From: an uncultured Opitutaceae bacterium
Lineage (GTDB): Bacteria; Verrucomicrobiota; Verrucomicrobiia; Opitutales; Opitutaceae
DNA length: 53,010 nt
Direction: 5' to 3'
NCBI GenBank assembly: GCA_903862935.1
Contig: CAIOZY010000033.1
Location: 1 to 53,010 of the forward strand
A program made the position numbers and the translations under genes. The notes below the pieces were generated by a model, which saw nothing but the letters and a program-made list of their open reading frames with translations, made no database searches and was not told the DNA's origin. Shown one piece after another: positions 46,166 to 53,010 of the stretch (its first letter is position 1; each line of letters begins with the position of its first letter).

Positions 46166-47950
46166 TCAGCGCCGTTCTGCTTCCGGACCCGGGAGGCCGG
46201 CAATAAGGCGTTCCACCGTTTTGAGCTCGTTTGCAGACCCAGCGATCATCGAAGGGAATAGGACCGCCGCCGCTGCAACGACCTGCGCGTCGGCCGTCTT
46301 CCGGCCGTACTGCAGAGCGTACCTGAGGACCCCGGGGGGCACCCGAGGCGCGCGGGATAATTGACCGAGTGCGCTCAAGATGCGGGGGCGATCGCCGGCC
46401 GCGGAAAGGACCGCGATCCAGGCCGTCGCGGAGGCCCCGAGGACGGGCTGCGTTAGGTCCGCGCCCGCGTAGAAGACCGGATTTGGCGCTATCGCGACCG
46501 AAGCCAGCTGTGAGTCGACGAAGAACGCCCGGTAGGAATCGGCGTAAGCAAGGCGCCAGCCGTGGTCGCGGAGAAGGGAGGCGACCAAGGCAGGGCTCTC
46601 AACGACCTTAACGAGTACGGCGTCGAAGGGCTGGCGGGCGCGCAGCGCCCGAAGCTTCTCCGGGTCCCGCAGCGCCCCGAAGTAGGTGGCAACCGGACCT
46701 GCATCGACAAAGCGCGTGTCGGCGTAGAGGCGGAGGCCTGGCGTGTGAAACTCGAGGTACCCTCCATCCCCCGGGTTGTTGAAGATGGACCCATGGAAGC
46801 CCGAGGCCGCGAGATACCGCGAGAAGTCGACCGGGCATCCGAAGGGGGAGGGCCCCAGGCCGAAGCCCGGCATCCCGCCGAGCGAGCGGTAGAATCCGTT
46901 GGAGGCGACCCAGATGGCAAGGCCGGCCGCCAGGGCGGCCGGTGCCCCATACCAGACCCCGCTCCCGGCGCGCCCGCGGCCGGCCAGGGCGGAGCCCACA
47001 AGCGGTCCGGAGAGGAGGACCAGAAGGGGGATGTTCCGGTAGGACACCGCGCTTCCGACGAGGCCGGCGGCGGCAAGAAGGATCGCGAACGCCCGCTCGC
47101 GCGGACGGGTGGCCGCAGCATGAAACGCGGCCGTGAGCAGCCCGGCCCAGCAGGCCTCAAACAGGGTGATCGTCCACAGGTGCCCCGGGACCCGGGTCGG
47201 CGGGAGCAACTCCTGGACCGAATAGTGCATGTGCCGCAGAAAGTTCGCCTGGACCAGAAACTCCCGCCAGCTGCCCGCCCCGAAGGGTGTCGCGAACGTG
47301 GCCGCAAGCGCCGTGCCCAGCAGCAACCACCATCCGCGCCACCGGCCCCCCCGTTCAGGCGCCCCCCGCGGGCGGACGAGAAAGCTCGCCAGGCGTAGGG
47401 CGATCAGGGCCGGGCCCAGCGCGAAGTAACCGTGGCAGTTTGCCCAGGCGGCCTGCATCAGGCCGAAGCCGAGCAGGGCCGACGGGGACGGGGAGTCGGC
47501 GAAATCCCGGCCTGCCAGCCAGCAGGCAAAGACTGCGGCGAACGCAAAGGAGAAGACCTCGGGCCGCTCCTCGAACCGGGTCTGGCACAACAGCAGCGCC
47601 GCGAGGGCGATCCCGGCTCCGAGGGCGCCCGCCCGCCCCGCGCCCGAGGTCCGCACCCAGCAGCCGAGCGCGACCGCCCACGCAGCCCCAAACAGGACGT
47701 CGACGGCGGGGATCCCGCCTGCTGCGTAGCAGCCCCTCACCGCCAGCTGGAACAGCCAGTACAGGTTTACGAAGCCGGGCTGCTGCAATATGAGTCCGTC
47801 GGAAGGCTGGGCGGCATGGGTCTCGACGATCCGCTGGCCCAGGTACAGGTGGTACCAGATGTCGGGACTGGACCACTGGTGGCACAGGAGCAGCACGGCC
47901 AGCGCGGTGATCGCAGCCCAAGCGAGCACCTTGAGGGGGTGCCGGTCCAT
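46166..47950 (-). CDS. Multi-pass membrane protein, GT-C glycosyltransferase-like
   Basis: The 594 residues have about ten hydrophobic segments. An early SPDIWYHLYLGQRIV motif resembles the D-x-WWHL loop of GT-C-fold glycosyltransferase-like proteins, and later GSIFNNPGDGGYLEF and LRLYADTRFVD match the soluble part of the same group. The donor and acceptor are unknown; a catalytic role is inferred from the fold resemblance only. I chose the ATG at 47950 over a GTG at 47983. It is convergent with lnt and divergent from the TonB-like gene. Confidence 0.65.
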   Translation of the reverse strand: MDRHPLKVLAWAAITALAVLLLCHQWSSPDIWYHLYLGQRIVETHAAQPSDGLILQQPGFVNLYWLFQLAVRGCYAAGGIPAVDVLFGAAWAVALGCWVRTSGAGRAGALGAGIALAALLLCQTRFEERPEVFSFAFAAVFACWLAGRDFADSPSPSALLGFGLMQAAWANCHGYFALGPALIALRLASFLVRPRGAPERGGRWRGWWLLLGTALAATFATPFGAGSWREFLVQANFLRHMHYSVQELLPPTRVPGHLWTITLFEACWAGLLTAAFHAAATRPRERAFAILLAAAGLVGSAVSYRNIPLLVLLSGPLVGSALAGRGRAGSGVWYGAPAALAAGLAIWVASNGFYRSLGGMPGFGLGPSPFGCPVDFSRYLAASGFHGSIFNNPGDGGYLEFHTPGLRLYADTRFVDAGPVATYFGALRDPEKLRALRARQPFDAVLVKVVESPALVASLLRDHGWRLAYADSYRAFFVDSQLASVAIAPNPVFYAGADLTQPVLGASATAWIAVLSAAGDRPRILSALGQLSRAPRVPPGVLRYALQYGRKTADAQVVAAAAVLFPSMIAGSANELKTVERLIAGLPGPEAERR

Positions 47951-48059
47951 GGGCCGGATTATTCCCGACTCCCCCGGGCGCACAAGAGCAACGTGGTGCG
48001 GGGCCGATTAGAAGGGACTTTGGGCCCCGACGGTGCTAGGAACGGCCCTTCGAACTACC

Positions 48060-48824
48060 ATGAAGGCTTGCGCGCTTATTCGCCTTCTCGCCCCGGTCTT
48101 GGGGCTCGTCTGCCCGCCGGCTCCCGCTGAGCCACCCGCCCAGGCTGCGGAAAATTCCGACTGCAAGGTGATCCAAACCGCCGCGGCCGTATTTCCCGAA
48201 CGGCTCCAGAACGCTGGGGTCACTCACGGGGAGGCCCGGGTGATGCTGCAGGTCGACACGGCCGGCCGCCTGACCGACACCCTTGTCATCGCTTACACCC
48301 ACGAGGCCTTTGCCCGCGAGGCTGAGAGGGTCCTGCGGCTGTGGAGGTTCGAGCCGGGGCGGGTCGGCGGGGAGCCTGTGGGCAGCGTCTTCGAGATGGC
48401 GTTCTATTTCCGGATCGACGGCATGTCGGTCCGAGTCAGGCACGGGGGCGGCCAGGCCGAGCAGGATCTGCCGGCCGGGCAGTATGCCTTCCAAGCCAGC
48501 CTGCTTGGGCAACTCGACCGGGCCCCGATGCCGATCAGTGCGAGCGCCCCCAGGTATCCCGGGGCTTGGGCCCATCGGGGCGTCCGGGGCCGTGTCACGG
48601 TGGAGTTCTACATCGACCAGGAGGGCAGGGTGCGGATGCCCGCTGTGGTCGCCGGCGGCAGCCGGCTCCTCGGGGGGGACGCGGTCGCCACCGTCGAGAA
48701 GTGGCGTTTTTCACCCCCGACCCGGGCCGGCGTTCCGACGCTGGTGCTCGCGCAGCAGGAATTCGTGTTTGGCTCCGAACGGGCCCTTCCCCCGGTCAGA
48801 CCCCAGGCTCCCGGCAGGCCCTGA
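48060..48824 (+). CDS. Secreted protein with two TonB C-terminal-like domains
   Basis: The start at 48060 gives a signal peptide (MKACALIRLLAPVLGLVCPPAPAE). Two repeats of the TonB C-terminal pattern follow: about residues 45-118 (VMLQVDTAGRLTDTLVIAYT...RLWRFEPG) and 165-240 (VTVEFYIDQEGRVRMPAVVAGG...EKWRFSPP). A typical TonB has one such domain, a membrane anchor and a long Pro-rich linker; here the anchor and linker are missing. It could be a periplasmic TonB-like or peptidoglycan-binding protein. Confidence 0.7.
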   Translation: MKACALIRLLAPVLGLVCPPAPAEPPAQAAENSDCKVIQTAAAVFPERLQNAGVTHGEARVMLQVDTAGRLTDTLVIAYTHEAFAREAERVLRLWRFEPGRVGGEPVGSVFEMAFYFRIDGMSVRVRHGGGQAEQDLPAGQYAFQASLLGQLDRAPMPISASAPRYPGAWAHRGVRGRVTVEFYIDQEGRVRMPAVVAGGSRLLGGDAVATVEKWRFSPPTRAGVPTLVLAQQEFVFGSERALPPVRPQAPGRP

Positions 48825-48853: not shown

Positions 48854-51534
<2,681 letters not shown>

Positions 51535-51538
<4 letters not shown>

Positions 51539-52623
51539 GCGAGAACCAGCGCCTCCAGGCCGCTCAGGCGCATGACGGGCGGAATGCTCGGGACAGGCCG
51601 CGGAAGAAACCCGCGCACGGCCGCCGCGATCGCGGCGATATGCTCGGGCGTCGAGCCGCAGCAGCCTCCGACCATGTTGACCCAGCCGCTTTCCGCAAAG
51701 TGCCGAAGGACGGCGGCCATGTCGGCCGGGGTCTCGTCATATCCACCGAAGGCGTTGGGAAGGCCCGCGTTAGGATAGCAGGTCGTGTAGGTGCCGGCGA
51801 TCCCTGACAGCTCCTCGACGTAGGGGCGCATCGCCCGGCCACCGAGGGCGCAGTTGATCCCCACGCTGAAGGGCCGCGCGTGGGCGATACTCGCGTAGAA
51901 GGCCTCGACGGTCTGGCCCGACAGGGTGCGCCCTGAGGCGTCCGTTATCGTGACCGAGATCATGATCGGGAGCTGGATGCCGAGTTCCTCGAAGACCCCC
52001 GAGATCGCGAACAGGGCGGCCTTTGCGTTCAAGGTGTCGAAGATTGTCTCGATCAGCAGAGCGTCCACGCCCGCAGCGATCAGGGTCCTGGCCTGTTCGG
52101 CGTAGGCCGTGACAACTTGATCCCAGGTAACCGCCCGGTATTCGGGCCGGTTAACGTCCGGGGATAATGAAAGCGTCCGGTTGAGCGGGCCGATCGCCCC
52201 GGCAACAAAGCAGCGGCGCCCTGGCGAGACGGACTCCGCCTTCCGCGCCGCCCGCAGGGCGAGCGCCGCCGCCGCCGCGTTGATCTCGGAGGCGAGCGCT
52301 TCGGTGCCGTAGTCGGCCTGCGAGATCGACGTAGAGTTGAAGGTGTTCGTCTCCACCATGTCCGCCCCTGCGGAGAAATAAGCGCTGTGGATCCCCTCGA
52401 TCACGTCGGGCCGTGTGAGGCCGAGCAGGTCGTTGTTTCCCTTCAGGTCGCGGGGGTGCCCGCGGAAGCGATCGCCCCGAAAATCAGCCTCCGTGAGCCC
52501 GAAAGTCTGAATCATAGAGCCCATGGCTCCGTCCAGAATGGCGATCCGGGCGCCGAACAGGGCGCGCAGCGGGCCGAAGGAGGGGGCTTCCGGCGGTTTG
52601 GGATTCACGGGTGCGGCTTGCAT
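51535..52623 (-). CDS. metH: Cobalamin-dependent methionine synthase, homocysteine module
   Basis: The 362 residues form the zinc-dependent homocysteine-binding barrel of Met[14 protein letters not shown] at the start, GINCALGG with one zinc Cys, and [12 protein letters not shown] with the other two. It ends SGLEALVLA at the point where full-length MetH passes into the pterin domain. The ATG at 52623 is preferred to a GTG at 52656. It could also serve with other methyl donors, but its coupling to the folate/B12 subunit favours a split methionine synthase. Confidence 0.93.
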
Positions 52624-52677
52624 GATGGGAGGGCTTGCGAACCCCTGTTGCAACACGATCGACTGGTCTTGGCAAGC

Positions 52678-52711
52678 AACATATCTATAAATCGTGATTT
52701 GATGATATGTT
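52678..52711. promoter_or_regulatory. 34-bp near-palindromic operator candidate
   Basis: AACATATC (52678-52685) and GATATGTT (52704-52711) are perfect inverted repeats, and AAATC (52689-52693) with GATTT (52696-52700) share the same centre at 52694/52695. Of 34 bases, 26 are palindromic. The element is very AT-rich in a GC-rich genome and lies 55 bases before the metH start. A dimeric repressor, for example an ArsR-type regulator of the methionine cycle, is a plausible binder, but this is inference. Confidence 0.6.
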
Positions 52712-52730
52712 TAATTTCTTTGGCGCCCGG

Positions 52731-52917
52731 CTCCGCGAGACCGAACTGGCCGCGCACGGGGTTCGTTCCAATTTCGGGAATCAGGGAAGGGGGTGAGAAT
52801 CGGCCACAGTTGTGCTGCTGTAACGCATCACCGCTCCCTACCGGGTAACCAACCTAAGAGATGGCCTACTTTCAGACCTCCGGACATAGGCGGGGTCGTT
52901 TTTCGTGATTCTCGGAG
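52731..52917 (+). ncRNA. Cobalamin riboswitch
   Basis: The + strand shows the conserved cobalamin-riboswitch core in order: AGGGAA (52783-52788), GGTGAGAATC (52792-52801), and a CTGCTGTAAC segment (52815-52824), with the right spacing. A weaker B12-box-like TTTCAGACCTCC follows near 52870-52881. CTCCGCGAGA (52731-52740) and TCTCGGAG (52910-52917) could form the closing P1 stem with a bulge. The ends are approximate. It points away from metH and towards the window edge, so it should control the next + strand gene. Confidence 0.8.
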
Positions 52918-52949
52918 GGCGGAGCCCATTTGAGCGAGGGACAAGGGGT

Positions 52950-52974
52950 GCGGACCAAACCTGTCCGCTTTTTT
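52950..52974 (+). terminator. Terminator after the cobalamin riboswitch
   Basis: GCGGAC (52950-52955) and GTCCGC (52963-52968) form a perfect 6-bp stem with a seven-base loop, followed by six T residues (52969-52974). It lies between the riboswitch core and the next ATG, which fits B12-dependent premature termination. Confidence 0.8.
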
Positions 52975-53000
52975 GATCGGACGACGGTATACGGGGATCC

Positions 53001-53010
53001 ATGCCGGACC
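53001..53010 (+). CDS. Possible start of a riboswitch-controlled gene (partial)
   Basis: ATG at 53001 opens a frame (ATG CCG GAC) 26 bases after the terminator and runs off the window. With only ten bases it cannot be identified. Genes behind cobalamin riboswitches are often B12 uptake, cobalamin synthesis or B12-independent isozymes. Confidence 0.3.

Follow-up and report, generated by a model that had tools for sequence, protein, structure and literature searches.

Cobalamin riboswitches of the RF00174 family placed upstream of btuB-type receptors are the closest described systems to the locus analyzed here. The likeness lies in the core sequence and in the position, and some of the copies that we have found in relatives reach RF00174 and precede TonB-dependent receptors. 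The copy studied here differs in being cut after about half of the aptamer and mutated, with its target reduced to a stump on another contig. In the relatives, the receptor would be made when B12 is scarce and the riboswitch stays on, and would be shut down when B12 is plentiful, while the operator would govern metH, and perhaps both genes, according to methionine status.

Palindromes near metH have been described in Proteobacteria, where they are bound by SahR and SamR and the predicted MetJ regulons include btuB (PMC4239095). The operator-like site of our locus resembles these operators in being a palindrome beside metH, in what is probably a different phylum. The third component is a transposon of the Transposase_29 (PF21804) type, likened to this group by its terminal inverted repeats and by a transposase homologous to that of an element in a relative (genome G006); of the copy studied here only 141 bases, with three codons of the probable transposase gene, are visible. 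Judged by titles, the literature on B12 riboswitches with an insertion, Verrucomicrobia, btuB and metH holds none on this arrangement, and the portion of PMC8546581 available to us describes no mobile element inside its riboswitch and offers no precedent. The locus is made of parts of known kinds, mostly ordinary, that have been broken by a mobile element and a probable deletion. It is a natural case in which a riboswitch and its receptor were lost and the metH side was retained. It also corrects an apparent B12 logic circuit, in which both the supposed terminator and the gene after it belong to the mobile element, and cautions that an expression platform can be mimicked where a contig breaks off in a repeat.

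The gap between metH and a BtuB-like receptor, with a riboswitch in it, is an ancestral arrangement conserved in the family. We examined 31 loci and dropped three without a core (L004, L029 and L041, at most 20/34), all of them lacking a metH match and, on the strand searched, a match to the receptor as well. This leaves 28 riboswitch places, 27 in relatives and one on contig C28 of the bacterium's own genome. The query that yielded most of the places took in sequence close to metH and so favours metH-linked ones, and metH is divergent from the riboswitch in 21 of the 28, its match starting 138–394 nt from the core. In every one of these 21 a TonB-dependent receptor match lies downstream on the riboswitch strand. 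Five further places (L001, L007, L012, L013 and L024) have the receptor and no metH within 1.5 kb, and neither gene was found at L019 (a contig end) or L027, the receptor thus following the riboswitch in 26/28 overall. In genome G027 the receptor's top two NCBIfam models are B12-receptor models, both of them below their cut-offs (250 against 599.7 bits and 204 against 836 bits), and for this reason we call it BtuB-like. The gene after the receptor codes for a DUF885 protein in G027 and G004, not in G010. The same layout appears in Verrucomicrobiia bacterium VER2 (L066, WYBX01000018.1), its core lying 169 nt away from the metH match and on the other strand, and this is the only one of the 80 MetH loci listed that has a core score above 0.

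The window, i.e., the whole stretch of 53,010 nucleotides analyzed, is contig C33 (CAIOZY010000033.1) of an uncultured Opitutaceae bacterium (GCA_903862935.1) and ends at 53010. Its relevant features are the following.

48854..51538, minus strand: metH part 2, which carries the domains for pterin binding, B12 binding and activation and shares 4 nt with part 1
51535..52656, minus strand: metH part 1, homocysteine-binding domain (PF02574); an alternative ATG start lies near 52623
52669..52711, no strand: operator-like palindrome in the gap that separates metH from the riboswitch; 36/36 fixed positions in the window and in L003
52742..52869, plus strand: truncated cobalamin riboswitch, 5' half of the aptamer; RF00174 model position 1 to about 95
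52781..52830, plus strand: conserved core block of the riboswitch; 63.9 bits with the weight matrix
52870..53010, plus strand: left end of a transposon (Transposase_29 type), within which the contig ends; contig C26 ends in the same 141 bases
52871..52890, plus strand: terminal inverted repeat, shared by the own-genome copies and the G006 element
52950..52975, plus strand: hairpin and T-run, transposon sequence formerly read as a riboswitch terminator
53001..53010, plus strand: probable transposase gene, first codons M-P-D, assigned from its position

The original prediction placed a cobalamin riboswitch divergent from metH at the end of the window. Its core is indeed on the plus strand, and both metH ORFs are on the minus strand, but the element is incomplete, being cut at 52870. 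The weight matrix was built on 27 other copies (the own C28 copy and 26 from relatives), L004, L014, L029 and L041 being excluded for having fewer than 24/34 core matches. With it the block at 52781-52830 scores 63.9 bits and so carries the conserved core sequence of the RF00174 5' half, and the next best place in the window, on both strands, scores -22. The leave-one-out scores of the 27 copies go from 64.2 to 87.7 bits, which makes the window the lowest of 28, in a set collected by similarity to the window and therefore biased to conserved copies. Using 52680-53010 as query, blastn gave matches in 28 of 57 genomes, own included, a count in which G020 matches by 32 bases outside the core only and one row of G006 (L004) is a transposon. 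The best match to relatives' riboswitches outside the own genome had an E value of 9.2e-17. This homology spans the operator and the aptamer and ends at 52870, and the alignment with L003 and L005 supports 52742..52869 as the riboswitch half.

The covariance model was far less responsive. Rfam at the gathering threshold gave no match over the whole window, nor was there any at E<=10 on 52600-53010 (411 bases). Searched alone, the 236 bases 52635-52870 gave RF00174 at 52742-52870 with 7.6 bits (E 8.4) and the 3' end cut, short of the cut-off of 31.5 bits, whereas relatives truncated to equal length reach 26.9 (L003) and 20.6 bits (L034). The covariance-model search, named at the outset as the check on the riboswitch, thus came close to a negative, and it is the homology to relatives' riboswitches that says otherwise. 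As a separate observation, RF00174 appears to under-detect the cobalamin riboswitches of this family, with 7/57 genomes over the cut-off under strict filters against 28/57 with blastn, G020 among the latter matching only outside the core. The same strict-filter search gave a count of 13/57 genomes, a low estimate that missed the own C28 copy too, and Rfam at the gathering threshold found nothing in the MetH loci L066, L068, L069 and L090, although a core is present in L066.

The half-aptamer has also changed. At 39 core positions conservation among the 27 copies reaches 90% or more, and the window differs at four of these, one conserved in 26/27 and three in 27/27. The changes are two adjacent C-to-G changes in the 5' arm of one stem, which we take to be P4, one C-to-T and one G-to-T, and by the RF00174 alignment the adjacent ones leave two unpaired positions in that stem. 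Among the 27 copies such changes number none in 20, one in three, two in two (L027 and L046), three in L024 and four in L025. Since L025 has four and still a receptor downstream, core changes alone are no proof of lost function, though its changed sites are less conserved than those of the window. The fold of the 280-nt region is no better than that of shuffles (z 0.68). The 3' strands that would close the aptamer are absent, the model match being cut at 52870, where the transposon starts. The 3' halves of 27 aptamers gave no real match on the flanks of contigs C20, C23 and C43 (best E 0.031), and in the control all 27 matched L003, with a best E of 1e-6 among the matches listed.

We assign the sequence from 52870/52871 onwards to a transposon because of its homology to the G006 element, the inverted repeats, the PF21804 match and the copies on several contigs. 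The left end in the window is 76% identical to that of the G006 element, which has 21-nt inverted repeats, 95% complementary and 3909 nt apart, and encodes Transposase_29. Among 150 sampled genomes of the family this left end is present in two, G006 and the own genome. The terminal repeat occurs in the latter at five sites on five contigs (with up to 3 mismatches), i.e., there are several copies, and left and right ends agree at 19/22. The single PF21804 match of the own genome is on C43, inside a right end, and covers positions 178-560 of 562; the NCBIfam search of the transposon gave no match. The middle of the transposon is absent from the bin and no contig spans the entire element. C33 and C26 end in the same 141 bases and match no further, and C20 and C23 have exactly 141 bases in common at the opposite type of element end. 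An assembly graph built with a word of 141, as appears to have been the setting, would leave sharing of just this length at a repeat. A Mutator-type element lies in turn within the G006 transposon (L056 3583-7533) and splits the transposase there.

The presence of the mobile element changes the reading of what follows the aptamer. Between 52500 and 53010 there are 2 terminator-like sites against 0.6 expected in shuffles, and the hairpin (52950-52968) with its T-run, taken originally for the riboswitch's own terminator, sits within the transposon at a depth of 80-105 nt. In its 3' arm is TGTCCGCTTT, which is found again in the G006 element, at offset 94 as against 93 here, and also close to the right end. 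The ATG at 53001 is at nearly the same offset as the first ATG (M-E-D-P...) of the HTH ORF of the G006 element, and 53001..53010 probably opens the transposase gene. An intact riboswitch, the terminator of which at 52950-52975 switches off the gene starting at 53001, would account for the family-like core and for a hairpin with T-run and an ATG that do exist. However, there is no Rfam gathering match, the 3' half of the aptamer is missing, and both hairpin and ATG belong to a sequence that recurs where another contig ends and has homology to a transposon. We consider this reading very improbable and abandon both the terminator and the gene at about 53001 to be shut off by B12. Even less credible, to the point of being nearly dismissed, is a diverged but working subtype that takes its 3' half from the transposon and now controls the transposase. 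The G to T change in CGG restores the CUG of the Rfam consensus, but two adjacent mismatches fall in one stem, there are no 3' strands before 52870, and the identical transposon end is found at another place, on C26.

The far side of the locus appears to be on contig C43. A right end of the transposon lies there at 87131, and from synteny with relatives we infer that C33 and C43 are linked through a single copy of the transposon. Adjoining this end are 1273 nt (1.27 kb, L152) that precede a receptor remnant and have no match among the loci compared, nor a Pfam match in their two longest ORFs. The remnant, nucleotides 1274-1378 from the right end, codes for 35 C-terminal residues of the receptor, 60% identical to the G027 receptor at its residues 656-690 of 691 (E 1e-10). 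Beyond it the order and strands of G010 are kept, with genes for DUF190 (79%), CrcB (66%), an ORF of the 590-aa type (55%), ClpP (73%) and adenine deaminase (74%), while the 686-aa ORF of G010 has no counterpart match on C43. The receptor of this locus thus consists of its last 35 codons only, and the B12-related target of the riboswitch is not present. The B12 transporter envisaged downstream of the riboswitch has its equivalent in the BtuB-like receptor of all the metH-divergent places, and here it is reduced to this stump. Searching the own genome with the first 415 residues of the receptor gave the C28 receptor as the only strong match, this N-terminal query having missed the C43 stump. 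DUF885 was not found in the own genome, and at E<=1e-3 the flanks on C20 and C23 match neither the receptor nor DUF885. The flanks on C33 and C43 show by eye no direct repeat of the kind that a target-site duplication would leave, their pairing being deduced and a deletion likely. In the simplest picture, the order would be metH, operator, half-aptamer, transposon, filler, receptor stump and DUF190.

The damage seen on C43 also bears on whether the junction could be an artefact of assembly or binning, either a wrong join of riboswitch and transposon or an insertion in only part of the population. The draft is in 62 contigs, the contig ends at a repeat and the transposon is not spanned, as would be expected in that case. 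Against it, the junction is internal to the contig and coincides with an inverted-repeat boundary common to other copies, the half-aptamer has changes of its own, and the receptor stump with its syntenic neighbours is damage to the locus independent of the junction. We give an artefact very little credit. With high confidence, we read the locus instead as a metH-linked cobalamin riboswitch that ancestrally controlled a BtuB-like receptor, was broken by a transposon and has mostly lost that receptor.

The ancestor had a cobalamin riboswitch reading away from a split metH and controlling a BtuB-like, TonB-dependent B12 receptor, with the operator in the gap. A transposon with terminal inverted repeats of about 20 nt now begins after the first half of the aptamer. 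A deletion following the insertion, perhaps between two transposon copies, may then have removed the 3' half of the aptamer and most of the receptor gene; the absent direct repeat fits a deletion and is no proof of one. A half-aptamer should be unable to close and would no longer sense B12, and it has no target left. The four changes at near-invariant positions fit drift without selection. metH and its operator are untouched.

Such a loss has to be seen against the B12 supply of the rest of the genome. Contig C28 (L049 4583-11169) carries a riboswitch of the same core family as the window copy, complete and above the Rfam cut-off, with no metH within 1.5 kb. It precedes a B12 uptake and corrinoid operon with genes for a BtuB-like receptor, a substrate-binding protein (Peripla_BP_2), a permease (FecCD), an ABC ATPase, cobO and cobQ, and this operon probably carries B12 uptake. 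The MetE-type domain (Meth_synt_2, PF01717) is absent from the own genome, a draft assembly in 62 contigs estimated to be 95.55% complete, and was found in 10 of 14 control genomes; the cell presumably needs B12 for methionine. A B12-independent methionine synthase, another candidate for the gene under the riboswitch, finds no place here, with a receptor in that position in 21 places and no Meth_synt_2 in the own genome. The loss of the metH-linked riboswitch and receptor may be tolerable because the C28 operon can supply B12.

The other half of the gap is in good condition. The operator-like site reaches 23-36 of 36 positions wherever metH is linked (21/21 places), against 16-19 in the remaining seven, with a consensus drawn from the window, L003 and L005 and hence not independent for those three. 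A site of 27/36 also precedes metH in L069, a locus of 12.9 kb that has no riboswitch core. In the own genome the site occurs only at 52669-52711, either with up to 3 mismatches or with a looser pattern. Of the circuit first proposed, made up of one operator and one riboswitch, the metH-linked operator-like site is real, and the riboswitch side is broken here. One gap carrying both an operator and a B12 riboswitch might couple the control of B12 use with that of its uptake, and the window might then represent a natural knockout of the riboswitch-receptor half with the methionine side intact, an interpretation that we offer tentatively and with slightly more doubt than conviction.

The domains of MetH are complete, PF02574 on one ORF and PF00809, PF02607, PF02310 and PF02965 on the next. 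The best matches to MetH, among at least 80 loci, include VER2 (69%), an Opitutae bin (L069, 68%) and a bin labelled Myxococcaceae (67%), so that by this one protein the window probably belongs to the Verrucomicrobiota. The two MetH parts are on separate ORFs in L003 and L005/L058 too. Further along the window, a 605-residue ORF on the minus strand (46166-47983) has no Pfam match at E<=0.001, and between it and metH, convergent with the latter, 48033-48824 codes for a protein with two TonB_C stretches.
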